This document shows positions 2,521 through 18,325 of a stretch of 23,551 nt of DNA, piece by piece. The DNA is from a virus. The position numbers and the translations under genes were made by a program. How positions within the stretch are numbered: position 1 is the stretch's first letter; each line of letters begins with the position of its first letter. Location: the IMG/VR virus record IMGVR_UViG_3300046836_000185, positions 1 through 23,551 of that record, one strand, 5' to 3'. Under the pieces are notes generated by a model. It worked only from the letters and a program-made list of their open reading frames with translations, searched no databases and was not told the origin of the DNA.

Positions 2521-2862
2521 ATGACGATAGCCATTGTCACGGCGACGATAGCCGCCCGCGGTACGATCACCCCCGCCGTCGCCATTACCGGCCCGATCAT
2601 CGGAATCATCATGCCGGCTGGTTGGGCACCGGCCGTGGTGGTCAGCGTGCAAGGTTCGGCAGACGGCGTGAACTTTTACGATCTGTACGATGGCGTGACG
2701 GCGAAAGAGCTTAGTTTCAACGTCAAGCAAAATTCCATGGTGGCCATCAGCCCGAACCGATTGTGCTGTTGCACCGCGATCAAGTTGCGATCGGGCACCA
2801 CATCAAGTCCGGTGATGCAGCCGATCGCTTGCCAGTTCAGCATCATCGTCCAAGGTCCGTGA
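2521..2862 (+). CDS. phage protein of unknown function, paralogue of 3447-3788
   Basis: 113 aa, not assigned to a named family. It aligns over most of its length with the 113-aa protein at 3447: shared features are a beta-rich SxDGxxxxDLY segment (SADGVNFYDLYDG here), an IKLRSGTTSSPVMQ segment, and a C-terminal AC(Q/K)F. The N-terminus is hydrophobic and rich in Ile/Ala/Thr, and it has three adjacent cysteines (CCC), which the paralogue lacks. Position between terminase and capsid genes suggests a head-associated or decoration role, but this is inference. A possible weak ribosome site (GAGG) precedes the ATG. Its last 60 bases are overlapped on the opposite strand by the HNH gene, so insertion of that gene may have altered this end. 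Confidence 0.7.
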   Translation: MTIAIVTATIAARGTITPAVAITGPIIGIIMPAGWAPAVVVSVQGSADGVNFYDLYDGVTAKELSFNVKQNSMVAISPNRLCCCTAIKLRSGTTSSPVMQPIACQFSIIVQGP

Positions 2863-3348
2863 TCGTCTGTTGTGGGTTTGCTCCAGTGGGGTGGCCCACC
2901 GCACATTACCGGGTTCGTAATTTCCGTTGTTGTCTATGCGGTCGATTGACAGGCCTTTGTGCGGGCGCTCACCAACATCGGCAAGGAAATTGGGAAAACT
3001 GTTGCTCCATCGCTCACAGACACTGATGCCGCGAGCGCCATAGTTTTTATATTGCTGAGCTTTTGGGTTGTTGCATCGAGAAAGCATCGAGGTCCAGACG
3101 TGATAGATCGGATGGTTTTTTGTCCCGCCGAAACTGGTGTAACCGTGACGATAGTTTCCACTGTACTTACGGCAACCACATGAAGTGGTATTGCCGGACT
3201 GAAGTCCGGTCGCGCTGGGACTGCTGGATTGTCCGCAATCACATTGGCATAGCCAATAGACGCGACCACGAGCATCGGTTTTGTTGGCCCGTCGAACGAC
3301 AACAAGCCGACCGAAGCGCTGTCCTGTGAGATCAACCAATTTGGGCAT
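2803..3348 (-). CDS. HNH-type (homing-like) endonuclease, antisense
   Basis: 181 aa, one of two genes on the minus strand. The N-terminus LVDLTGQRFGRLVVVRR is followed by a Cys cluster (C34, C36, C38, C57, C59; CQCDCG and CGC) that probably binds zinc. The middle has HPIYHVWTSMLSRCNNP and YKNYGARGISVCERW. The C-terminal nuclease-like core is SIDRIDNNGNYEPGNVRWAT, ending in EQTHNRR. This is a common architecture in free-standing phage endonucleases. A GGGAGG sits just upstream of its ATG on the minus strand. It lies between two paralogous genes, overlaps the 3' end of the first by 60 bases, and its region is visibly less GC-rich than neighbours. All this fits a selfish insertion. Whether it still cuts DNA cannot be told from sequence. 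Confidence 0.85.
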   Translation of the reverse strand: MPKLVDLTGQRFGRLVVVRRANKTDARGRVYWLCQCDCGQSSSPSATGLQSGNTTSCGCRKYSGNYRHGYTSFGGTKNHPIYHVWTSMLSRCNNPKAQQYKNYGARGISVCERWSNSFPNFLADVGERPHKGLSIDRIDNNGNYEPGNVRWATPLEQTHNRRSRTLDDDAELASDRLHHRT

Positions 3349-3446: not shown

Positions 3447-3788
3447 ATGCTGACCATCGTTGACGGGCCGACCATCGCTGCCGGGGAATCGCTTTCCGAC
3501 GGTGCCGACTGCTCGGCCGGCACCATCGTGCGCATCACCGTGCCGCAGGAATACACGGCGGCCAACATGACCTTCCAGGTGTCGAGCGACGGCAATTTGT
3601 ACAACGACCTCTACACGGCCGATGGCGGCGAGATCACGCTGGTGGCCAAGGCCAATACCGGCATCGTGGTGCATGAGGCTTGGACCAAGTCGATCAAGTT
3701 TATCAAGTTCAGGTCGGGCACCCGCGGACATCCGGTCGTCCAACGAGAGGCCTGCAAGTTTGCAGTTGCGGTCGAGACCGCGCAGTAA
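3447..3788 (+). CDS. phage protein of unknown function, paralogue of 2521-2862
   Basis: 113 aa with a strong GGAGG (3437-3441) five bases before the ATG. It is the more regular copy of the pair: MLTIVDGPTIAAGESLSDGA at the start, MTFQVSSDGNLYNDLY in the middle, then IKFRSGTRGHPVVQREACKF. The composition is beta-rich with no signal peptide or membrane segment. I recall similar small proteins next to terminase and capsid genes in rhizobial prophages, without a defined function. A capsid decoration or head-stabilising role is possible but unproven. It ends 3 bases before the HNH nuclease gene. Confidence 0.75.
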   Translation: MLTIVDGPTIAAGESLSDGADCSAGTIVRITVPQEYTAANMTFQVSSDGNLYNDLYTADGGEITLVAKANTGIVVHEAWTKSIKFIKFRSGTRGHPVVQREACKFAVAVETAQ

Positions 3789-3791
3789 GAA

Positions 3792-4082
3792 GTGGCCTGG
3801 TCGCCCGGTGGGTGGCATCAGTTCTATACGACGCGATACTGGCTGCGCCGGCGGCGGCTGCAATTGCGTGCGCATCCACTTTGCAAGTTCTGCGCTGATA
3901 ACGGGCTCGTCGTTCGCGCAACCATAGTCGATCACGTCGAGCCGCATCGCGGCGACTGGGACAAGTTCGTGCTCGGTCCGCTGCAGTCGCTCTGCGAGTC
4001 TTGTCACAACTCCACGAAACAAAGGTTTGAACACGGGCGGCCCGGCGTCGACGCCGACGGCTGGCCGCTCGATCGGACGTGA
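3792..4082 (+). CDS. HNH endonuclease
   Basis: 96 aa from a GTG at 3792. It has the compact HNH layout: a zinc pair C31-x2-C34 (CKFC), the first catalytic histidine in IVDHVEPH (D47-H48), and a second zinc pair C68-x2-C71 followed by H72 and N73 (CESCHNSTK). Small HNH proteins next to terminase are known in HK97-like phages to assist terminase cleavage at cos sites; that role is suggested here by position and by its sense-strand placement in the operon. The ending VDADGWPLD is typical of this group. Its stop overlaps the GTG at 4079 but the capsid gene most likely starts at the ATG at 4094. Confidence 0.9.
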   Translation: MAWSPGGWHQFYTTRYWLRRRRLQLRAHPLCKFCADNGLVVRATIVDHVEPHRGDWDKFVLGPLQSLCESCHNSTKQRFEHGRPGVDADGWPLDRT

Positions 4083-4093
4083 AGGAGGCTGCC

Positions 4094-6205
4094 ATGGGAC
4101 TGCGCCAGCGTCAAAGCGATCTCTATCCCGACGACACCGAGTCCTATGATGATTTCATGAGCCGCTGCGGCGATGAACTCGGCGACGAGGATGTTTGTCA
4201 ATTGATTTGGGAAGACGCGTGGGACACGGACCGTAGCGCCAGGGACATCTGTCATAAGACCCATGTCAGCAAGGCCGACGGGCTCGAATATGTCATGTCG
4301 GACGAAACGCCCGATCGCATGGGCGACGTGATTATGGCTGACGGCTGGGATCTGACGGACTTCCGGAAGCATTCACCAGCGCTGTTCAATCACAGAAGCG
4401 ACTTTGTCATCGGTCGCTGGACCAATGTCCGCACCGAGAACAAGCAACTGCGCGGGACGCTCGAGCTGGCACGGCGCGGAACGTCCGATCGCATCAACGA
4501 GGTCATCAGTCTGGTCGAGCAAGGCCTATTGCGCGCGGTATCGGTCGGCTTCCAGCCGAGAGAGTTTGAGCCGCTCGACAAGGAAAAGAGCGGCTACAGG
4601 TACACCAAGCAGAAACTGGTCGAGACCAGCCTGGTTTCGGTGCCAGCAAACCCGAATGCGCTGGCCATCGCCAAGTCGCTCAAGATTTCGCCTGTGACCA
4701 TCGATCTCGTTTTCGCCGGGAAAGGCAAAAGACGCGGGATCAGACGGCGCGGGCTCACCAGCGGGCACGCTGATATGTCATCGCCAGTAGGAAAGGGCGC
4801 GACCATGTCGTTCGCTCAAAAGATCAAAGAGAAAGAAAGCCTGATTGTCGAAAAGACCGACAAGCTCGAGGCGTTGCACGACGCCGTCGGTGACGGCGAC
4901 TATCCCGACGATTTGCTCGAGACGGTGAAAAAGGCCAACGCCGAGATTGCCCACGACAAGGAAGTCCTGGCGATGTTGCGCGACAGCGAGCGCAATCTTG
5001 CCATGACCAGTGACGCCGGTGGTCGCTCGCTGGTGAGCAAACACAATGGTGGGCACAGCGCGCCGCAACTGCCAGCGCAAAGGCCGTTCGGTTTTGCACC
5101 GAAAAAGCTCGATACGATCGATCTGCTTTGCCGTGCCAGCGCCTTGCGGTTGCTGGCGTATCACGAGCGCAAGCCGGCGATGGACCTCGCGCGCGCCATC
5201 TTCGGCGATGACGAACCGCTCAAGGCAGTGATTGACTGGCAGACCAAGGCGGCCTCGGCCGCGGCCATGACCACGGTGACCGGATGGGCCAAGGAGCTGG
5301 CCCAGCAGATCGTCGTCGATTTCATGCAAATCCTGATGGCCGCATCGGTATTCGGGCCGCTGTCGGGAATGGGTCTGTCGCTTGGATTTGGCCGCAACGC
5401 AAAAATAATCATCCCGACGCGGTCGAGAACGCCGACCATCGCGGGATCGTTCGTCGGTGAAGGGTTGCCGATTCCGGTTCGCCAGGGCGCCTTTACGTCG
5501 CTCACCCTGACGCCCATGAAAATGGCGGTCATCACGACCTGGACGCGGGAACTCGACGAGCATTCGATGCCGGCGATCGAGGGACTGTTGCGCGATGCCA
5601 TCGTGTACGACACCTCGGTGGCGACGGATTCCGTTCTGCTCGACGCGAATGCGGCGACGGCGGTGCGGCCGGCCGGCATCCTCAACGGCGTCGCTGGCCT
5701 GACACCGACCGCCGGCGGCGGATTTGCTGCCCTCACCGGCGATATCAAGCAACTGTCGGGGGCCTTGCTTACCGGCACGCTCGGCAACGTGCGCAAGCCG
5801 GTCTGGCTGATGAATCCGCAACAGGTCAACAGCGCGGCGTTTGCAATCGCCACCGGCGCCGGCGTGTTCCCGTATCGCGACGAAATCGGCCAGGGCCGCC
5901 TCGGCGGTTGGCCGATCATCCAGTCCGGCACGGTGCCCGCCGGCACCGTCATCGTCATCGACGCCGCCGACTTCGTCAGCGTCACCGGCGACGGGCCGCG
6001 GTTCGAAATCAGCGATCAAGCCACGCTGCACATGGAAGACACCACACCGACGGACATTTCCACAACGGGTACGCCGGCCGTTGTCGCCTTCCCGGCCAAG
6101 AGCATGTTCCAGACCGACATGCTGGCCTTGCGGCTGATCATGCCGCTCACATGGGCGATCCGTCGCACCGGCACCATCGCGTGGCTGACCGGAGTTACCT
6201 GGTAG
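4094..6205 (+). CDS. fused HK97-family prohead protease and major capsid protein
   Basis: 703 aa. The ATG at 4094 is preceded by GGAGG at a good distance; an in-frame GTG at 4079 is less likely. Residues ~55-200 are the U35/HK97 prohead protease: histidine in ALFNHRSD (H100), nucleophile serine in LRAVSVGF (S150), and the ETSLVSVPANPNA strand (E177). Residues ~200-237 form a basic linker (KGKRRGIRRRG). Residues ~238-310 are charged and probably helical, like the HK97 delta/scaffold domain, and ~335-703 are the major capsid fold, with GEGLPIPV and MNPQQ segments. One polypeptide thus carries protease, scaffold and shell; self-cleavage would release the mature subunit. An in-frame ATG at 4805 (MSFAQKIKEK), preceded by AGGAAAGGGCG, might also be used to make capsid protein without the protease. 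Followed by a small charged protein and the portal. Confidence 0.93.
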   Translation: MGLRQRQSDLYPDDTESYDDFMSRCGDELGDEDVCQLIWEDAWDTDRSARDICHKTHVSKADGLEYVMSDETPDRMGDVIMADGWDLTDFRKHSPALFNHRSDFVIGRWTNVRTENKQLRGTLELARRGTSDRINEVISLVEQGLLRAVSVGFQPREFEPLDKEKSGYRYTKQKLVETSLVSVPANPNALAIAKSLKISPVTIDLVFAGKGKRRGIRRRGLTSGHADMSSPVGKGATMSFAQKIKEKESLIVEKTDKLEALHDAVGDGDYPDDLLETVKKANAEIAHDKEVLAMLRDSERNLAMTSDAGGRSLVSKHNGGHSAPQLPAQRPFGFAPKKLDTIDLLCRASALRLLAYHERKPAMDLARAIFGDDEPLKAVIDWQTKAASAAAMTTVTGWAKELAQQIVVDFMQILMAASVFGPLSGMGLSLGFGRNAKIIIPTRSRTPTIAGSFVGEGLPIPVRQGAFTSLTLTPMKMAVITTWTRELDEHSMPAIEGLLRDAIVYDTSVATDSVLLDANAATAVRPAGILNGVAGLTPTAGGGFAALTGDIKQLSGALLTGTLGNVRKPVWLMNPQQVNSAAFAIATGAGVFPYRDEIGQGRLGGWPIIQSGTVPAGTVIVIDAADFVSVTGDGPRFEISDQATLHMEDTTPTDISTTGTPAVVAFPAKSMFQTDMLALRLIMPLTWAIRRTGTIAWLTGVTW

Positions 6206-8938: not shown

Positions 8939-9792
8939 CCGCCCATCTCGTCGCCGACGAAACAGGACTCGTCCACGCGACTGATCAAAGTGGCAAGGTT
9001 CATACCAACCACGGCCATCCGATCGTCGGCACGCTGACGGATGCCACGGGAACGCTGGCGGCGACCGAAGCGCGCGACGCTGCAGCTATCGCCGGCCTGG
9101 TCGGCCTCATCGGTGGGCTGGCTGCGACAGACGGCGCGGATGTTGCTGCATTCAGCGGACTGGCCGGCGCCAAGGGCACGCTTGTTGCAACGGAAGGCGC
9201 TGACACGGCTGCCTTCGCGGGCACGGTTGCGGCGCCTGCCATTACGGGCACGCTCGCCGCAACGGAAGCGCCGGATGTCTTTGCTGCGACCGGCATCGTT
9301 GCGTCGGCCGGCGAGATTGTCGGCGTGCTGGCGGCGACCGAGGCGGCCGACGCTGCGGCATTCGCCGGTGCTGTCGAGCAGGCACCCGTTATCGGTGCCG
9401 GCGGCGGCGGCGCCTACTATCGGCCCGCGCGGCCATTGCCAGTCGTGGGCTACGGCGAAGGCATCCTGCCCCAGCTCGAGGGCGAGGCGCATGGCGTCGT
9501 CGTCGCTGCCAGCAACGCAACGGCGCTGTTGCCCGGCTTTGTCGCCGCCGCGGCTGGCTCGGCTGGCGCTGCCGGTTCCAGTGCGGCCCTGCTCGTGCTC
9601 AAGGCGGCAGCGAGCGGCGAACGTGGCGCAAGAGGATCGACCGATGCGGTGCTCGATTGCCGGGGCGCGGGCCTAGGCACGGCCGTTGCCTGCGGCCGAG
9701 CCTCGGGCGCGATTGCCAAGCTCGAGGCCAACGCGATCGGCCGGTACGACGACGACGAGGCCGCCGCTATCGTATGGCTGCTGGCAGCATGA
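8935..9792 (+). CDS. repeat-containing phage protein, probable virion surface component
   Basis: 285 aa. After a short N-terminus (HLVADETGLVHATDQSGKVH), residues 40-154 are five imperfect repeats of 21-25 residues with the core (T/G/V)L(A/V)AT(E/D)xxDxxAxxG. Then a glycine-rich hinge (GAGGGGAYYRPARPLPVV) leads to a C-terminal Ala/Gly-rich domain ending in YDDDEAAAIVWLLAA. The repeats look like short beta units and vary mainly in the loop after the core. Repeat proteins of this type occur in rhizobial prophages near tail or head-fibre genes. Function unknown; surface exposure and adhesion are reasonable inferences. Overlaps the collagen-like gene by ATGA. Confidence 0.72.
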   Translation: MTAHLVADETGLVHATDQSGKVHTNHGHPIVGTLTDATGTLAATEARDAAAIAGLVGLIGGLAATDGADVAAFSGLAGAKGTLVATEGADTAAFAGTVAAPAITGTLAATEAPDVFAATGIVASAGEIVGVLAATEAADAAAFAGAVEQAPVIGAGGGGAYYRPARPLPVVGYGEGILPQLEGEAHGVVVAASNATALLPGFVAAAAGSAGAAGSSAALLVLKAAASGERGARGSTDAVLDCRGAGLGTAVACGRASGAIAKLEANAIGRYDDDEAAAIVWLLAA

Positions 9793-10526
9793 CTTCTCGC
9801 CCGGAATATTCGCTGCTTGAAGGGCTGAGTACCTGCCTGACGATGGCGCAACGCGCGCTCGTCGAGGTGCGGGCGCTCGCGCGCATTCCGGGGCCCGAGG
9901 GCAAGCGCGGCGCTGCCGGCGAGCGCGGGGAAGCCGGTAAACCTGGACCCGCAGGGCCGGCCGGGCGTGCCGGCATCGATGGCAAGGATGGCGAGACGGG
10001 GCCGCAGGGCAAGCCGGGCAGCCTGCCGGTGGTGCGCGATTGGGAACCCGACCTCGTCCATTACGCGGGCGCCGTCGTCGTCCATGCCGGCGCCACCTGG
10101 CAAGCCGCCCGCGACACCGGGCAGGCGCCGGGACATGCGGACTGGATCTGTGTGGCGCGACCCGGCCGCGATGCTGTGCTGCCGAAGGTGCGCGGCACCT
10201 GGAGCGAGGTCGAGACCTATGCGGCGCTCGACATCGTCGCGCTCGGCGGCTCGAGCTTCATTGCCCGCCGCGCGGCGCCTGGCCCATGCCCGGGTGAGGG
10301 CTGGCAACTGATCGCCTCAGCGGGCAAGCCCGGCCGACCGGGACCAAAGGGCGATCCAGGTGAGACGGGTTCACGCGGGCTGCCAGGACCGGCGGCACCG
10401 CTGATTGTCGGTTGGACGATCGATCGCAAGACCTACACCGCCACGCCGATCCTGTCCGACCAGAGCAAAGCGCCGCCGCTCGAGCTGCGCAGTCTGTTCG
10501 AACAGTTTCACGACGAGGCGCGCTGA
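9789..10526 (+). CDS. collagen-like phage protein with carbohydrate-binding-like middle domain
   Basis: 245 aa; start chosen at ATG 9789 because it overlaps the previous stop and the upstream extension is a shadow. After an N-terminal helix (LLEGLSTCLTMAQRALVEV), residues 35-76 are 14 uninterrupted Gly-X-Y triplets (GPE GKR GAA GER and so on), predicted to form a trimeric collagen helix. Residues ~85-175 contain two copies of a pattern typical of small chitin/carbohydrate-binding modules (xxVHYAGAVVVHAGATWQA and GTWSEVETYAALDIV...GSSFIA...GWQL). Residues 179-202 are eight more triplets (GKP GRP GPK GDP). A short C-terminal domain (VGWTIDRKTYTATP) follows. Collagen-like segments are known in phage fibres and other trimeric surface proteins, so a thin head or tail fibre is likely. 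Confidence 0.8.
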   Translation: MTSRPEYSLLEGLSTCLTMAQRALVEVRALARIPGPEGKRGAAGERGEAGKPGPAGPAGRAGIDGKDGETGPQGKPGSLPVVRDWEPDLVHYAGAVVVHAGATWQAARDTGQAPGHADWICVARPGRDAVLPKVRGTWSEVETYAALDIVALGGSSFIARRAAPGPCPGEGWQLIASAGKPGRPGPKGDPGETGSRGLPGPAAPLIVGWTIDRKTYTATPILSDQSKAPPLELRSLFEQFHDEAR

Positions 10527-11173
10527 TGGTGGACGTGTGGGTCAAGGTGCTGCAGCCCGCCGACAGCTACGCGCTGCTGACGCTGGACGAGCTTAAGGCC
10601 ATTCTCAAAATCCCGCCGACCGACACCAGCGAGGACGCACAATTGCAGGTGTATATCGATCAGTACAGCGACGTTATCGCAACCATGTGCCAGCGCGTGT
10701 TCGCCTATGAGACCGTTGCGGAAACCTGGCGCGGCGACCTGCCGCCGTTCGATGCCCCGCGCTTGTTCCTGACGCACTATCCGATCGTCGATGCCGACAT
10801 TGTCTCGGTGGAATCGCCGCGCGGCACCGTGCTCGACCCGGCGAGCTATGAGGTCGAGAACGCATCCGGCAAGCTGCGCATCGAAGGCGCCTGGTCCGAG
10901 CCGATCACCGTGACGTACAGCGGCGGCTATCAGTTGCCGGACGCCGCGCCGCCGGCCATCAAGGCGGCGGCCGGGCTGTTGATCCAAGCGGCGCGGCTGC
11001 AGGCGCGCATGGCCGCCACAAACGGCGTCCGGTCGGTCATGCACGACAACACCCGCGTGCAATATTTCGATCCAGTGCAGATATTCGGCAAGGACGGACT
11101 TGCCGGGCCGTTGCAGACCGCAACCAATACCGTCAACGCCTTGCTCAATGCCTACACGCGATTTTATGTCTAA
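10526..11173 (+). CDS. head-tail connector protein, gp6-like
   Basis: 215 aa from ATG 10526 (TGATG overlap with the previous stop; longer in-frame extensions upstream are shadows). The N-terminal helical block LTLDELKAILKIPPTD with DAQLQVYIDQYSDVIATMC matches the HK97 gp6/adaptor family, which forms the ring under the portal. The middle is a beta-rich insertion (FLTHYPIVDADIVSVESP and YEVENASGKLRI), often seen in longer members of this family. The C-terminal helix (APPAIKAAAGLLIQAARLQ) also fits. Its gene overlaps the first gene of the glycosyl/methyl-transfer cassette. Confidence 0.85.
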   Translation: MVDVWVKVLQPADSYALLTLDELKAILKIPPTDTSEDAQLQVYIDQYSDVIATMCQRVFAYETVAETWRGDLPPFDAPRLFLTHYPIVDADIVSVESPRGTVLDPASYEVENASGKLRIEGAWSEPITVTYSGGYQLPDAAPPAIKAAAGLLIQAARLQARMAATNGVRSVMHDNTRVQYFDPVQIFGKDGLAGPLQTATNTVNALLNAYTRFYV

Positions 11174-11807
11174 GCCGTTTTGGTCGGTGCCGCGCGAATG
11201 GCCGGGCGAATGCTGTTTCATCGTCGCCGGCGGGCCATCGGTGCTCGATCACGACCTCGAGCAGTTGCGCGGCCGGCGCGTGATCGTCATCAATTCCAGC
11301 ATTCACGCGGCGCCGTGGGCCGACTTTCTCTACTTCGCGGACTGGCGGTGGTGGAACGAACCGGAAAACCGCGCGGCAGTCGCCAACTTTGCCGGTCGTG
11401 TCGTCACCACCTCGCAAATGGTTCGGGATGCAAAAGTCCTAATCTGCCGCAAGACCAATCCGCCGGGACTGGCGCAGGCGCCTGATTGCCTGACGCAGAA
11501 ATGGACATCGCTCACCGGGGCGACCAATCTGGCGTCGCATCTGGTGGGGCGCGGCGGAACGATCGTGTGGCTCGGCGCCGATGGCAACCCCGCCGCCGAT
11601 GGCCGGGTCTGGCATCACAAGCCGCATCGCTGGGGGCCGAAGCCAGAACGCTACGACCGGCACCGCGGCGACATCGCCACCTTGGTCGAGCCGCTGCGGA
11701 TCATGGGCATCACACTGTTCAACGCGAGCCCGGACAGCGCCTACGCGGATCTGTGGCCGGTGGTGAGCCTGCAGGACGCGCTGATGCGCGAGCGGCGGGC
11801 CGCGTGA
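11166..11807 (+). CDS. Rossmann-like phage protein, DUF115/MAF-like, possible nucleotide-sugar-related function
   Basis: 213 aa from ATG 11166, which overlaps the connector stop. The opening CFIVAGGPSVLDHDLEQLRG (GGPS at 22-25) followed by RVIVINSSIHAAPWADFLYF and ADWRWW resembles the Rossmann-like core of DUF115/motility-accessory-type proteins, where a glycine/serine loop binds a nucleotide or nucleotide-sugar. Later landmarks are TSLTGATNLASHL, IVWLGADGNPAADGRVWHH and LFNASPDSAY. The resemblance is to fold-level landmarks only. It is first of three genes, all overlapping, placed between connector and head-closure genes. A role in sugar transfer is inferred from its neighbours; an alternative is a structural adaptor that kept an enzyme fold. 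Confidence 0.6.
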   Translation: MSKPFWSVPREWPGECCFIVAGGPSVLDHDLEQLRGRRVIVINSSIHAAPWADFLYFADWRWWNEPENRAAVANFAGRVVTTSQMVRDAKVLICRKTNPPGLAQAPDCLTQKWTSLTGATNLASHLVGRGGTIVWLGADGNPAADGRVWHHKPHRWGPKPERYDRHRGDIATLVEPLRIMGITLFNASPDSAYADLWPVVSLQDALMRERRAA

Positions 11808-12748
11808 CTGTCGTGTTCGACGGCATGCACGGGCTCGGCGACAACATCCACCAGCGCGCGGTGGTGCGCCGCGTGCTCGCGACGCCGGACGCGGACGTGT
11901 GGCTCACAACGCCGTGGCCGTGCCTTTATCACGACCTCGTCGGCGAACGGTTTCATGTGTTGCCACCGGCGCGAACGACGCTGCGGACGCAGCGCAAGAA
12001 TGTCCGGCGCGAGCGCGAGCACTACACGCGCCAGCGTCCACCGCTGGAGCCGCCACGGAAAAAGAAGATATGGTACGACGCGCAGAACATTCGCGCGACG
12101 AACTCTATCCTCGGCGGCATGCTGCGCTATACGCTGCATCAGCCGCTCGAGGGCGCCGACTTCTCGTTGCCTGTGCCCGAGGCATGGCGCGCGAAGGCCA
12201 TGGCGCGCATCGCGCGGCGGCCCGACCGCCCTATCATGGTGCTGCGACCGCTGGTCAATCGCACCGAGTGGAACGGCTGCGATACCCGCAATCCCGACCC
12301 GAGGACTTACGCGGCGCTCTACCGCGCCATCCGTTCGCGGTTCTTCGTCGTGTCGATCGCCGACCTGGTCGACGGCGTTGAGTGGATTTGTGGCGACCAC
12401 TTGGATGCCGATGTTTACCTGCACGCCGGTGAGCTGGACGCCGAGGCCGTGATCGGCTTGATCGCATCCGCCGCGCTCACCTTCTGCTCGCCCGGTTTTG
12501 CGCTGATCGCGTCGCAAGCTGTCGGAACGCCGGTGGTCAGCGTGTATGGCGGACGCGAATCGTCGCGCTTCTATGAGTACGGCGCACGCTTCGCGCCCAC
12601 GCTCGGCATCGATCCGGTGCGGCCGTGCGACTGCTTTCGCCCCAGGCACCTGTGCAACAAGCACATCGATCTCGACCAGGCTCTCGCTCGCATCTCGCTT
12701 TTCACGGATACCCATGTCGCTGCCGACCGTTCCCGCATCGCGGTTTGA
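11804..12748 (+). CDS. GT9-like glycosyltransferase (heptosyltransferase-fold)
   Basis: 314 aa from GTG 11804 overlapping the previous stop (GTGA); longer upstream extension is a shadow. The N-terminus VVFDGMHGLGDNIHQRAVVR has the GLGD loop of ADP-heptose:LPS heptosyltransferases (family GT9). The C-terminal half has the acceptor/donor signature-like segment SPGFALIASQAVGTPVVSVY (229-248) followed by YGGRESSRF, and a cysteine cluster CDCFRPRHLC (C275, C277, C284) as in several GT9 members. A basic stretch RTQRKNVRRERE sits at 61-72. These features support glycosyl transfer from a nucleotide sugar; donor and acceptor cannot be named. Being in the late operon, it is made with the virion proteins, suggesting action on virion or on the host surface late in infection. 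Confidence 0.7.
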   Translation: MTVVFDGMHGLGDNIHQRAVVRRVLATPDADVWLTTPWPCLYHDLVGERFHVLPPARTTLRTQRKNVRREREHYTRQRPPLEPPRKKKIWYDAQNIRATNSILGGMLRYTLHQPLEGADFSLPVPEAWRAKAMARIARRPDRPIMVLRPLVNRTEWNGCDTRNPDPRTYAALYRAIRSRFFVVSIADLVDGVEWICGDHLDADVYLHAGELDAEAVIGLIASAALTFCSPGFALIASQAVGTPVVSVYGGRESSRFYEYGARFAPTLGIDPVRPCDCFRPRHLCNKHIDLDQALARISLFTDTHVAADRSRIAV

Positions 12749-13310
12749 CGTGCGGCCGATCGATTGGGCCGGGTTGCCGCGGCGCTACATGAACCCTGGC
12801 GAATTGGAGATGCTGATCGCGCTGATGCGCAGCGTGTCGCCGCGCCACGTGATCGAGATCGGTGTTAACATCGGCCGCACCGCCAAGGCGATCCTGGCCA
12901 ACGTGCCGGGCATTGAGCACTACACCGGAATCGACGTGCCGCTTAGCTATGTGCCTGCCAAGGCGGTGCAGCGTCACGAGGTGCCGGCCAATCCGGGCGA
13001 GCTGGTCAACGACGACGCGCGATTTCATTTGCGGGTGCGGCCGCGCGGGTCGCTCGATCTGACACATTGGGCGCTGCCTTCCGCCGACGCCATATTCATC
13101 GATGGTGATCACGGGCGCGAGGCAGTCGAACACGACAGCGCGCTGGCGACGGAGGTCGTTCGGCGGCCGGGCATCATCATCTGGCACGATTATCATGACC
13201 TCGGCACGGTGGACGTGAAACCGGTGCTCGATCTCTTGCACCGCGGCGGTCGCAACATCGAGCACGTCGAGGGCACCTGGCTCGCATTCGAGCGGCTGCC
13301 GGCAAGCTGA
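12714..13310 (+). CDS. class I SAM-dependent methyltransferase (Methyltransf_24-like)
   Basis: 198 aa from ATG 12714, which lies 35 bases inside the preceding gene. Motif I is VIEIGVNIGRT (residues 47-56; E48-I-G), the acidic residue at the end of strand beta2 is D74 (YTGIDV), and the post-I/IV region has DAIFIDGDHGREAVEHD (D130, H133) and IIIWHDYHD (D159). This DGDH pattern is typical of Methyltransf_24 enzymes that modify small molecules or sugars, often in saccharide clusters. It follows a GT9-like gene in the same overlapping set, so methylation of a transferred sugar is a sensible guess. The substrate is unknown. Confidence 0.8.
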   Translation: MSLPTVPASRFDVRPIDWAGLPRRYMNPGELEMLIALMRSVSPRHVIEIGVNIGRTAKAILANVPGIEHYTGIDVPLSYVPAKAVQRHEVPANPGELVNDDARFHLRVRPRGSLDLTHWALPSADAIFIDGDHGREAVEHDSALATEVVRRPGIIIWHDYHDLGTVDVKPVLDLLHRGGRNIEHVEGTWLAFERLPAS

Positions 13311-13678
13311 TGGCAATCGACTACAGCGCCATGATGTATGATCCGGTCTATGCGGAACTCGGCGTGCCGGCGGTGCTCACTGTGGCGGGTGCCGATGGCG
13401 GGGCCGACATTACCGTGCTCGACGACACGCGGCCGAAGGTGTTGCCGATCGCGCCCGGCGGCGGAACACCGGCAGAGGTGCATAGCGTCGGTCCCGGCGC
13501 TTTTGCCCGTATTCCCGAACTCGCCGAAAAAGGCATCGCACGCGCCGACTATGCCGACGCGGTGCTGGCTTTCAACGGCCGCACCTGGATCATTCGCTCG
13601 TGGGAAATCCGCGGCAACCCGAACGGCGAGGATCTGGGTGAGGTGCGGTTCGCACTGAAGGCCGATCCCGTTGGCTGA
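13310..13678 (+). CDS. probable head-closure (head-tail joining) protein
   Basis: 122 aa; ATG 13310 overlaps the methyltransferase stop (TGATG). Short beta-rich protein: VYAELGVPAVLTVAGADG, ITVLDDTRPKV, then EVHSVGPGAFARIPELAEKG and AFNGRTWIIRSWEIRGNPNG. The size, the early 'GVPA.L' strand and the late 'F.G.TW.I.S' strand are typical of FII/gp7-like stopper proteins. Position after the connector (interrupted by the cassette) and before the terminator candidate also fits. Identity is inferred from shape and place rather than from a clear motif. Confidence 0.65.
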   Translation: MAIDYSAMMYDPVYAELGVPAVLTVAGADGGADITVLDDTRPKVLPIAPGGGTPAEVHSVGPGAFARIPELAEKGIARADYADAVLAFNGRTWIIRSWEIRGNPNGEDLGEVRFALKADPVG

Positions 13679-14111
13679 TGTTCGCGAGAACATCCTCGCG
13701 CGGCTGCTCGTGGTGGTTGCCGGCATTCCCAATATCCGCTCGGCGCAACGCAACAATATCGAAATTCCGGAAGACCAGTTACCGGCGGTGATCGTGTTCG
13801 ATGGCGACGAGGAAACTGATGGTGCAGCCGACCGTTCGGCGCGGCCTTCCACAAGGCCCTACGTCGTCCGCATGCACCCGGAGATCATCATCGCACAGCA
13901 GGCCGACGAGGTCGGATCGGAACTCACCACCTTGCGGCGTGAGCTGATCAAGCGCGTGCTGACCGACACCGTGCTCAACCAGCAGATCGGCGGTAACGGC
14001 GCGATCCGCTATCTCGGATGCCAGACCGATCTCGGTTGGGGGCGCTCGCTGCAAGGAGCGCTGCGCGCGCAGTTCGTGTTCCAGTACGCACTCAAAATAG
14101 AGGAGCTATAA
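13671..14111 (+). CDS. probable tail terminator / tail completion protein
   Basis: 146 aa from a TTG at 13671 that overlaps the previous stop; the resulting start, ADVRENILARLLVVVAGIPN, fits relatives that begin ADVRENIL. It continues IRSAQRNNIEIPEDQLPAVIVFDGDEE, MHPEIIIAQQADEVGSELTT (a core strand/helix of gpU-type terminators) and ends GRSLQGALRAQFVFQYALKI, a final strand typical of the family. It would cap the tail tube and meet the head. The tail tube gene follows with its own good ribosome site. Confidence 0.7.
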   Translation: MADVRENILARLLVVVAGIPNIRSAQRNNIEIPEDQLPAVIVFDGDEETDGAADRSARPSTRPYVVRMHPEIIIAQQADEVGSELTTLRRELIKRVLTDTVLNQQIGGNGAIRYLGCQTDLGWGRSLQGALRAQFVFQYALKIEEL

Positions 14112-14114
14112 GCC

Positions 14115-14642
14115 ATGCCCACGTCACCTAATGTTGCAAACTATCACATCGGCAAAGGTATCGTCAGCTTCAAGGAAGTCGGTGCTTCGACCTTCATCGA
14201 CCTCGGCAACGCGCCGAAGTTCATCTACACGCCGGCGGTCACGAAGAAGGAACACTTTTCCGCACGGGAGGGCGTCAAGACCAAGGACTTCACCGCCATC
14301 ACCCAGATCGGCGCGACCATCAAGGTAACGCTCGACGAGATCACCGGCGATAATCTTGCCATGTTTGCGCTTGCCACGTCGGGCACCGACACCGATGGCA
14401 ACGTCACCCTGTCCGGTCTGTCGAAGGCCGAGTTCACCGGTGACATCAAGGTGGTTGGCACCAACGATATCGGCCAGCAGGTCGACTTCCTCGCTACCGT
14501 CTCGTTCATCCCGGCCGGCGACTTCAGCTTCATCACCGACGCGGACGATTTCACGCTGATCGAACTCGAGGCCGAGGTGATGAAGAGCACGGCTGGCGAC
14601 TTCGGCATCTGGACGATCCGCGACGAAACACCATCGGCATAA
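14115..14642 (+). CDS. major tail tube protein
   Basis: 175 aa; GAGGAG (14100-14105) precedes the ATG, as expected for an abundant product. Sequence landmarks: NYHIGKGIVSFKEVG, FIDLGNAPKFIYTPAVTKKE, HFSAREGVKTKDFTAITQ, ATIKVTLDEITGDNLAMFAL and a C-terminal FTLIELEAEVMKS. These match tube proteins of siphoviruses, which polymerise as stacked hexamers around the tape measure. It lies between terminator and tail-chaperone genes, the standard order. Confidence 0.85.
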   Translation: MPTSPNVANYHIGKGIVSFKEVGASTFIDLGNAPKFIYTPAVTKKEHFSAREGVKTKDFTAITQIGATIKVTLDEITGDNLAMFALATSGTDTDGNVTLSGLSKAEFTGDIKVVGTNDIGQQVDFLATVSFIPAGDFSFITDADDFTLIELEAEVMKSTAGDFGIWTIRDETPSA

Positions 14643-16118: not shown

Positions 16119-18325
16119 TGGCCACGATCAGCCAGCGCATCAGCCTCGATGGCGCCGAGCAAGTCAAGAAACAGCTTGCCGAGATCGGCGACGCTGGCGA
16201 AAAGTCGGTAACCCAAATCCAGACTGCCGCCGACAAATCGGACGTATTCAGCAAGCTCGCCGAATCGGCCGCGAAGCTGAGCGACGCGATTGCGCCGCTC
16301 TCGGCCGCGATTGCCAAGCTGACGGAGGCCACAGGCGGTGCCGCAGAGTCGGCGCAGAAGTTCGGCGAGGTTGTAGATGCGACCGCCGAGGGCCTTACCA
16401 AGCTCGCGGATGAAGGCAGCAAGGCCGCCGAAGCCATCAAAGCCATCGATGATGCAAGCCAGAAGGCGAACGAAAACGTTACGAAGTCGGCGGAGACTGC
16501 CGACAAGTCTTCAACTTCTCATGTCGGCCTCGCTCTCGCGGCGGTCAAGGCCGGCGCCGCGGTGGTGTCGGTCGGCCAGGCAGCGACGGCGACTGCCGCC
16601 GCGGTGGAGGGCGCCGCGGCGGCGACCACGACGGCCGGGGCTTCTATTATAGGGGCAACCGCGGCGGTCGGGACGTTCGCCATTGCTCTTGGTAGTGTAC
16701 TCGCTGGCGCGATTGGTGCGGTCGTGGCTGGCTTGGCAACCGTTTCTGCTGCGGTAGAGAAGGCTACCAACGAATATGAACAACTGAATCACACCCTGCT
16801 AGTGTTGTCGCAGACAACTGCGACCTCTTTTGAATCCTTACAACTCGGTACCGCGGCGCTCGAGCAGATCGGCATCAAGACGGAAACCGCGCGCAACGCG
16901 GTTGTGAAGCTCGATGAAACGCTGAAAGGTTTAGATCCTGGCGAGAAGCTCAAGGCATCGGCAGACGCGGTACTGCAGGCCGAGAAGGCGATGTTGGAGG
17001 CACAACTGGCCGCTGCTGGGCTTCGCGACAATTGGAGAGAGGCGGTTATAGCGGGCCAGCGCCTTGCGTTCGTCAATCAACAACTCGCCGATGGGCTGAC
17101 CGCACAGGGGCAAGCCGATAAGGCCGCAAGCGAGGCATCCACGCAATTGGCCACTGCCCAAGCCAATCAACTCGAGAAAGTCATTGCGCTCATCAAGCAG
17201 ATCGAAGCGGGGCAGAAGGGGATCCAGTTCGACGAGGCGACGACGGCGGCGACCAAGATCGATGCGCTCAATGTCCGGCTCAAACAGGTGAAGGATACGA
17301 CCGGCGACGCCCGGCAGGAGTTCTTGAAGATCATCGCCAATATCGCATCGCTCAAGGATGCCATTGCGTTCGGAGCGACGGTCGGGTTTTCCGCCGACGA
17401 CGTTGATCGCATCCGCCGGTTCGGCGGCGAAGCCAGCAAGATCCCCGACCTGTTCCAACGGATCAGCGAGTCCGGCGCGCTGATCGGCCCGGCGGTCAGC
17501 CAATCTCTCGACGAGATGCGCACCAGCACGCAGAACGTCGAGAATGCCTGGACACGGTTGATGGCGACGTTCGATACGACGGTTTTCACCCGGATCGACG
17601 CCGCCATCAGCACGACGTTGAACAACATCGCGGCGATGGTCCTCAACGCGACGGCAGCCGTTTTTGAAGCTGTTAATACGGCGTTCGATCAAATCGGGAC
17701 GCTGCTTGCTCATTCCGTCGAGGGCTGGGGCCTCATTTTCAGCAGCCTCGGCAGCATGATCGAATCTGCGTTCAGCGGCATCTGGGACAGTTTGACCAGC
17801 GGCGCCTCGGCGGCCATCAACATGGTCTCCGGCCTGATTGATAGGCTGATCGCCAAGCTCAACGCGGCGTGGGAGACGCTCAAGAACATCGTCGGGCTGG
17901 GCGGCAGCCCTGCCACCGGCGGCGGCGGTTCCGGCTTCGCGGCCGGCGGCCTGCTCGGCGGCAGCGGCAGCGGCACGTCGGACAGCAACCTCGCCTGGGT
18001 GTCGCGCGGCGAGTACATCACGCCTGCGCGGGCGGTGGCGCAGCCCGGCGTGCTGGCGTTCCTCGAGGCGCTGCGCCGCTCGGGCGGCAACCTAGCCGCC
18101 GTGCTCGACGGCATGGGCCGGTTTGCGCTCGGCGGCCTGGTGCGAACGCCCATCGCGATTCCGGCGTTCGCCGGCGGCGGCATGAACCATGTCACCATCC
18201 AGTTTCCCGGCCTGCCCGAGATTACAGGCTTGCGCGCGTCGTCTGGCGTGGTCGACGAATTGCGCCATGCCGCGGCGCTGGCGCAGGTGCGCTCGGGCGG
18301 CCGAAAGCCGAGCCGGTATTCCTGA
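16118..18325 (+). CDS. tail tape measure protein
   Basis: 735 aa, the longest tail protein in the window, directly overlapping its neighbours. Residues 1-130 are charged helical repeats (AEQVKKQLAEIGDAGEK and similar), typical of coiled-coil tape measures. Residues ~135-213 are a long Ala/Gly/Val-rich hydrophobic stretch likely to enter the host membrane during DNA entry. The middle is helical and polar. The C-terminus has the usual glycine-rich block (GGGGSGFAAGGLLGGSGSG) followed by LAWVSRGEYITPARAV, found in many siphovirus tape measures. At about 0.15 nm per residue it predicts a ~110-nm tail. No lytic enzyme domain is seen. Confidence 0.9.
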   Translation: MATISQRISLDGAEQVKKQLAEIGDAGEKSVTQIQTAADKSDVFSKLAESAAKLSDAIAPLSAAIAKLTEATGGAAESAQKFGEVVDATAEGLTKLADEGSKAAEAIKAIDDASQKANENVTKSAETADKSSTSHVGLALAAVKAGAAVVSVGQAATATAAAVEGAAAATTTAGASIIGATAAVGTFAIALGSVLAGAIGAVVAGLATVSAAVEKATNEYEQLNHTLLVLSQTTATSFESLQLGTAALEQIGIKTETARNAVVKLDETLKGLDPGEKLKASADAVLQAEKAMLEAQLAAAGLRDNWREAVIAGQRLAFVNQQLADGLTAQGQADKAASEASTQLATAQANQLEKVIALIKQIEAGQKGIQFDEATTAATKIDALNVRLKQVKDTTGDARQEFLKIIANIASLKDAIAFGATVGFSADDVDRIRRFGGEASKIPDLFQRISESGALIGPAVSQSLDEMRTSTQNVENAWTRLMATFDTTVFTRIDAAISTTLNNIAAMVLNATAAVFEAVNTAFDQIGTLLAHSVEGWGLIFSSLGSMIESAFSGIWDSLTSGASAAINMVSGLIDRLIAKLNAAWETLKNIVGLGGSPATGGGGSGFAAGGLLGGSGSGTSDSNLAWVSRGEYITPARAVAQPGVLAFLEALRRSGGNLAAVLDGMGRFALGGLVRTPIAIPAFAGGGMNHVTIQFPGLPEITGLRASSGVVDELRHAAALAQVRSGGRKPSRYS

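Follow-up and report, generated by a model that had tools for sequence, protein, structure and literature searches.

A candidate virion-protein glycosylation cassette at an exchangeable site between connector and head-closure genes of a virus

Genes for the virus particle enclose three genes of enzyme type in the viral record IMGVR_UViG_3300046836_000185, of which a stretch of 23,551 nucleotides (hereafter, the window) was analysed, and the question is what such enzymes would modify. The three overlapping genes, all on the plus strand of the virion operon, are gene A (11166..11807, 213 aa), gene B (11804..12748, 314 aa, GTG start) and gene C (12714..13310, 198 aa). The left flank is the gene of the head-tail connector/adaptor (10526..11173, plus strand; Pfam Phage_connect_1, E 1.3e-4; phrog_442, head-tail adaptor, 5.5e-21). 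The right flank is a small gene in the neck/head-closure position (13310..13678, plus strand), assigned by position and conservation; it is 57-85% conserved among relatives and adjoins the connector gene where the site is empty, and no significant match to Pfam or PHROG families was found for it. The landmarks named in the preliminary description were all recovered at their positions: the GGPS loop in the product of 11166-11807, GLGD and SPGFALIASQAVG in that of 11804-12748, and EIGVNIGRT and DGDH in that of 12714-13310.

Neighbouring genes overlap by 8 nt (connector/A), 4 nt (A/B, GTGA), 35 nt (B/C) and 1 nt (C/next gene). The overlaps of A, B and C are ordinary, similar ones being present between neighbouring genes, and show only operon membership. 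In the region 9700-14200, no terminator-like site and no plus-strand promoter-like site were found. The late operon position proposed earlier is supported. Genes A, B and C are conserved in relatives with dN/dS of about 0.11-0.34, indicating purifying selection; this, together with recurrence of the order A-B-C in many contigs, identifies them as real genes.

Further upstream in the window, the protease and the major capsid protein are apparently encoded by one fused 708-aa gene (4079-6205), as annotated for ORF003 of phage PAJU2. Two similar-looking 113-aa genes (2521-2862 and 3447-3788) are located on either side of a minus-strand ORF (2803-3348), which has the appearance of a mobile gene inserted there. 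In contigs L095 and L016, gene A is directly preceded by a relative of the gene 3447-3788.

Sequence-profile search of the PDB was uninformative, with chance matches only for the alignments of A and B and none for C, and comparison of folds was therefore needed. No Pfam family, PF01973 (MptE-like) included, matches the product of gene A itself; PF01973 is matched by 4 of 21 relatives of A, with a best E-value of 1.4e-7. Among PHROG families, gene A matches phrog_4603, 'alpha-2,3-sialyltransferase' (E 1.2e-19). Its AF2 model, with a pLDDT of only 81, is most similar to the flagellin glycosyltransferase Maf (5mu5; Z 15.1, rmsd 3.2, 182 of 213 residues), followed by the GT42 sialyltransferase Cst-II (Z 11.3), MptE-like HPPK (Z 11.0) and thiamine pyrophosphokinase, TPK (Z 9.7). 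The GGPS loop resembles the GxGPS-type loop of the Maf and GT42 families. As modelled, gene A encodes a putative transferase of Maf/GT42-like (MptE/DUF115) fold, with Maf a clearly better match than HPPK; it shares the fold of Maf and GT42 enzymes and differs from them as a stand-alone 213-aa core below Pfam detection. By analogy, its donor is possibly a CMP-activated nonulosonate-type sugar. Maf glycosylates Ser/Thr residues of surface proteins (PMC11339370). In several relatives the N-terminus of A seemed to be missing, which proved to be an artefact of start codon choice: the complete reading frame contains the GPS loop and, in many such relatives, extends into B.

Gene B matches phrog_6804, a family of unknown function (E 2.7e-37). 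Its AF2 model (pLDDT 92) is similar to the GT9 structure 3tov (Z 19.1), TibC (4rap, Z 18.9) and WaaF (1psw, Z 18.8); its top structural matches are GT9/TibC proteins with Z 16-19 over 250-271 residues, corresponding to the full-length GT9 fold. With E-values up to 1 allowed, Pfam Glyco_transf_9 gave no match to B, and among 28 relatives two reached E 0.06 at best; since the Pfam cut-off is missed, B is called GT9-like and is not filed as GT9. Asp13 of the GLGD motif, Cys275, Cys277, Cys284 and His282 are invariant in 28 sequences. The catalytic base of TibC is Asp-110, and TibC glycosylates Ser/Thr residues of surface proteins (PMC4358343). Residue 1 of the B model aligns with residue 97 of TibC, which places TibC Asp-110 at or next to the invariant Asp13, within the range of the alignment; the catalytic aspartate of the N-terminal GxGD loop of GT9 is thus predicted to be present in B. 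With the autotransporter heptosyltransferases TibC/AAH (BAHT), of which TibC has a protein acceptor, B shares the GT-B fold, the catalytic aspartate region and a C-terminal Cys-rich motif. Unlike TibC, it lacks the N-terminal beta-barrel, its residue 1 aligning after the barrel, and in place of the iron finger of Cys 339/342/358/370 (PMC4358343) it has C-x-C-x4-H-x-C, with three invariant cysteines and one histidine. By its predicted structure, gene B is a GT9/TibC-like GT-B transferase.

Gene C belongs to Pfam Methyltransf_24 (E 3e-9; 38.1 bits against a curated cut-off of 26.3) and has a weak match, below the cut-off, to the NCBIfam family of NanM sugar O-methyltransferases. Judging by these profiles, it encodes a SAM-dependent methyltransferase, probably a sugar O-methyltransferase. 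The Rossmann, GT-B and methyltransferase folds proposed in the preliminary description are accordingly supported by structure comparison for A and B and by Pfam for C; for A the Rossmann-like fold holds and the generic identity does not, since the protein is Maf/sialyltransferase-like.

The connector-closure junction had been regarded as normally free of enzymes, whereas in the group of the window it is a cargo site with several contents, including none. The interval between the two genes was read, wherever both were present, in 80 contigs encoding relatives of the major tail protein (MTP) of the window. Where the connector is 71-78% and the MTP 83-97% identical to its counterpart in the window, the site contains A-B'-MT_23, a glycosyltransferase of phrog_1962, small genes of unknown function, or nothing, the connector and closure genes then being directly adjacent (for example, L059 and L078). 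The lone phrog_1962 glycosyltransferase, unrelated to the cassette, takes its place in L048 (4551-5177), L049, L052 and L055. A cupin gene is present between A and B of the A-B-C unit in L010 and an additional gene in that position in L011; an HNH endonuclease gene (4153-4719) is inserted between A and B in L085; both methyltransferase types occur at the site in L057 and L104, and some relatives hold four genes there. The alternative contents are again of glycan type, namely the phrog_1962 glycosyltransferase, MT_23 and the cupin.

A tie of the cassette to one head or tail module was considered and dropped: window-type A-B-C genes (about 81% identity) also accompany heads with an identity of only 26-28%, and the MTPs of cassette-free relatives are 83-86% identical to that of the window. 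Because the site is variable or empty and the heads are divergent, the cassette is dispensable, exchanged in parts and not bound to one head type. The wording 'locked into' the operon was too strong, since relatives without the cassette keep the flanks intact. Absence from relatives combined with an adaptor nature of the proteins had been named as evidence against the enzymatic reading; the cassette is indeed absent from many relatives, but its proteins are not adaptors. A collagen-like protein, earlier suggested as a partner of the cassette, was rejected in this role, as cassette-free relatives keep the collagen-like gene. In L003 (7773-9950) and L005 (7915-9123), large genes with a collagen-like stretch occupy a second cargo site, located between the closure gene and that of the tail terminator.

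Homologues were also found in the Pseudomonas phages PAJU2 and D3 and in PMG1 and Psp6. PAJU2 carries A, B and a methyltransferase gene, ordered as in the window, immediately downstream of the head-closure gene (gp10-gp11-gp12); in D3, A (orf7) is separated from B-C (orf12-orf13), and PMG1 likewise has A apart from B-C; in Psp6, B-C is located between the capsid and connector genes. The units of D3 and PAJU2 lie in the late region, as in the window, with homologous A and B and a methyltransferase gene, but their methyltransferase is of the MT_23/phrog_6564 type and their B is only about 30% identical. A literature search revealed no published study of the function of the PAJU2 or D3 cassette; in the deposited PAJU2 record, the A homologue ORF010 is called 'structural protein', a label given to only four genes of the stretch read.

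All or part of the unit is present in prophages or phage-like loci of Mesorhizobium, Bradyrhizobium, Phenylobacterium, Solimonas, Achromobacter, Enterobacteriaceae, Pseudomonas mendocina and Methylophaga. The survey of co-occurrence at the site, suggested earlier, showed A-B-C recurring in order in many contigs, and wherever a B locus had enough flanking sequence, A was nearly always present as well (81/83). Methyltransferase genes accompany 74 of these 81 A+B loci: 30 of the MT_24 type, 42 of the MT_23 type and two with both. A and B form a single open frame in L018-L026, L028, L117, L118 and L123, while in Mesorhizobium-type prophages a single protein of 961 or 964 aa (L124, 7284-10169; L125, 7239-10133) comprises A, B, a GT-like stretch recognised by our own reading of the sequence, and a methyltransferase. 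The unit is located between the genes of antiterminator Q and phage lysozyme in Enterobacter asburiae and just upstream of terminase in Buttiauxella and Mixta; large phages carry relatives in other gene contexts. In the chromosome of Citrobacter youngae (L134, 3146-10072), B, the methyltransferase gene and A directly follow the gene of a 1516-aa inverse autotransporter with 12 Big_1 domains; more Big_1 genes were found around, and no phage gene was recognised among the neighbours scanned. This arrangement suggests an adhesin glycosylation locus. Judged by its distribution in sequences, the A-B-methyltransferase unit is old and widely shared.

The cassette is probably a mobile, late-expressed set for O-glycosylation of virion proteins with a methyl cap. 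Protein glycosylation with the particle as target is favoured by folds of enzymes that glycosylate Ser/Thr, the methyltransferase as a capping enzyme, late timing, the glycan-type alternatives at the site and the copy beside an adhesin gene. Co-inheritance and fusion of the activities, the association with the MTP C-terminus described below, the label of PAJU2 ORF010 and the precedent in mycobacteriophages point the same way. In such a single pathway, gene A would place the first sugar, possibly of the nonulosonate type and nucleotide-activated by the host, on Ser/Thr of a virion protein, and gene B would add the second; alternatively, B would start and A extend. Gene C would then O-methylate the glycan, giving the cap. 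Since the cassette contains no genes of sugar-nucleotide synthesis, the donor must be supplied by the host. Translation as part of the virion operon makes a particle protein synthesised at that time the likely substrate, the best candidate being the C-terminus of the MTP; the benefit would be an altered particle surface.

The preference for virion over host-surface modification, already voiced in the preliminary description, is retained. Late modification of the host surface, with LPS or envelope glycan altered just before lysis, for example against sticking to debris or against superinfecting phages, is unlikely, although it has several points in its favour. GT9 enzymes also serve LPS, and the fold of B is that of the LPS heptosyltransferases WaaC/WaaF; D3 and PAJU2 also carry O-antigen-converting genes, and the Enterobacter unit occupies the usual place of late cargo, between Q and lysis genes. 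However, the O-antigen genes of D3 and PAJU2 are located elsewhere in the genome, protein glycosyltransferases are among the best matches of A and B, the chromosomal copy stands beside an adhesin gene, and the cassette contains no flippase, polymerase or membrane enzyme. As for serotype conversion of the gtrABC type, no flippase or bactoprenol glucosyltransferase Pfam match was found in A, B or C, and none is annotated beside the D3 and PAJU2 homologues.

The operon position might set late timing only, the substrate being a small molecule, nucleic acid or host protein in counter-defence or metabolism. The fold family of A includes pyrophosphokinases (HPPK and TPK, with the Z-scores given above), methyltransferases are versatile, and relatives in large phages have other contexts; this is nevertheless improbable, as A is nearer to Maf, is constantly paired with GT9-like B, and a PADLOC search gave no match to a defence family. 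Hardly credible is a structural role of A or of the whole cassette as enzyme-like adaptors built into the neck, to which the label of PAJU2 ORF010 and the location between connector and closure genes could point: catalytic-type residues are conserved, fusions join the proteins with GT and MT domains, the flanking genes are directly adjacent in many cassette-free relatives, and other phages carry the cassette at a different location.

If glycosylation of the virion is accepted as the preferred reading, an acceptor may be sought among the structural proteins. Twelve of them were scanned for Ser/Thr/Tyr columns enriched in cassette carriers, and a single column was obtained, the penultimate residue of the MTP. 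In the window, the gene in the MTP position (14115..14642, plus strand), assigned by its place after a tail-terminator-like gene, encodes a protein ending in ...TPSA; the codon of Ser174, the hypothetical O-glycosylation site, at which a hydroxyl residue tracks the cassette, is at 14634..14636 (plus strand). In the first set, the penultimate residue is Ser or Thr in all carriers listed, with both letters occurring and neighbouring residues varying; the MTP ends in ...PPAGP or PAGP in 17/17 relatives without a recognised glycosyltransferase at the site, and in VSS in loci with phrog_1962 only. Among carriers in the new contigs, two MTPs end in TTTA and one in GVTA, and L192 and L206 have no motif; of eight cassette-free MTPs, five end in VTP and three in KHG.

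After the five VTP ends had been seen, the rule was tightened post hoc to 'Ser/Thr, then not Pro'. Under it, unique MTPs have the motif in 29/32 carriers versus 3/21 others, these three being the phrog_1962 loci; for the MTP family of D3 and PAJU2 (ends KSA, KTA, KSSS) the counts are 56/71 versus 2/14. In both families, an end of Ser or Thr followed by Ala or Ser characterises most carriers and is rare where the cassette is lacking. The original, looser rule gives 29/32 versus 8/21 (Fisher p 1e-4) and, in the D3/PAJU2 family, 57/71 versus 8/14 (0.08), values which overstate the evidence, because the rows are not independent and cassette state can be explained on the trees by only about 5 and 4 changes; a strict independent-pairs test is underpowered and cannot reach significance. 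The Mesorhizobium contig L125 was scored as cassette-free, its fused gene being located upstream beyond the distance searched. The motif is nearly absent from control proteins of the operon, except the small tail gene at 18325 (5/21) and the MCP of the D-family (4/17). Exceptions are cassettes of the A-B fusion type, paired with MTPs without the motif, and the D3-like prophages L215, L266 and L267, which have complete cassettes and MTPs ending in KAA, with no proposed acceptor hydroxyl.

Picked post hoc from many columns of sequence, the association makes the MTP C-terminus a candidate acceptor, a good lead and not a result. We tentatively suggest, as a possibility with the balance somewhat against it, that the penultimate Ser/Thr of the MTP would carry a glycan with an O-methyl cap, which would place sugars on every ring of the tail tube, that coevolution has linked MTP ends to cassettes in two MTP families among proteobacterial siphoviruses, D3 and PAJU2 included, and that alternative enzyme sets at the cargo site would produce different tail glycans.

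Virion glycosylation in mycobacteriophages, in which phage-encoded glycosyltransferases act on capsid and tail tube proteins, is proposed as a working model for the cassette of the window. It has been described for Che8, Corndog and Myrna (Freeman et al. 2023, as reported in PMC12363180). In Rhodococcus phages, a glycosyltransferase and a methyltransferase were also read as virion glycosylation (PMC13313380). The mark was shown by experiment in mycobacteriophages, whereas for the cassette of the window it is proposed; the latter differs in having three enzymes and alternative contents at a fixed site.

Glycosylation of virions by phage enzymes has so far been documented in a few actinobacteriophages. 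The findings suggest that HK97-like siphoviruses of Proteobacteria, some long-studied Pseudomonas phages among them, widely share an exchangeable glycosylation module. If true, this would account for several genes that are annotated as 'sialyltransferase', 'GT9' and 'methyltransferase' and lie among those of head and tail. The cassette thereby bears on the composition of the exterior of the phage particle, for which the C-terminus of the tail tube protein would provide a specific and easily tested acceptor site.
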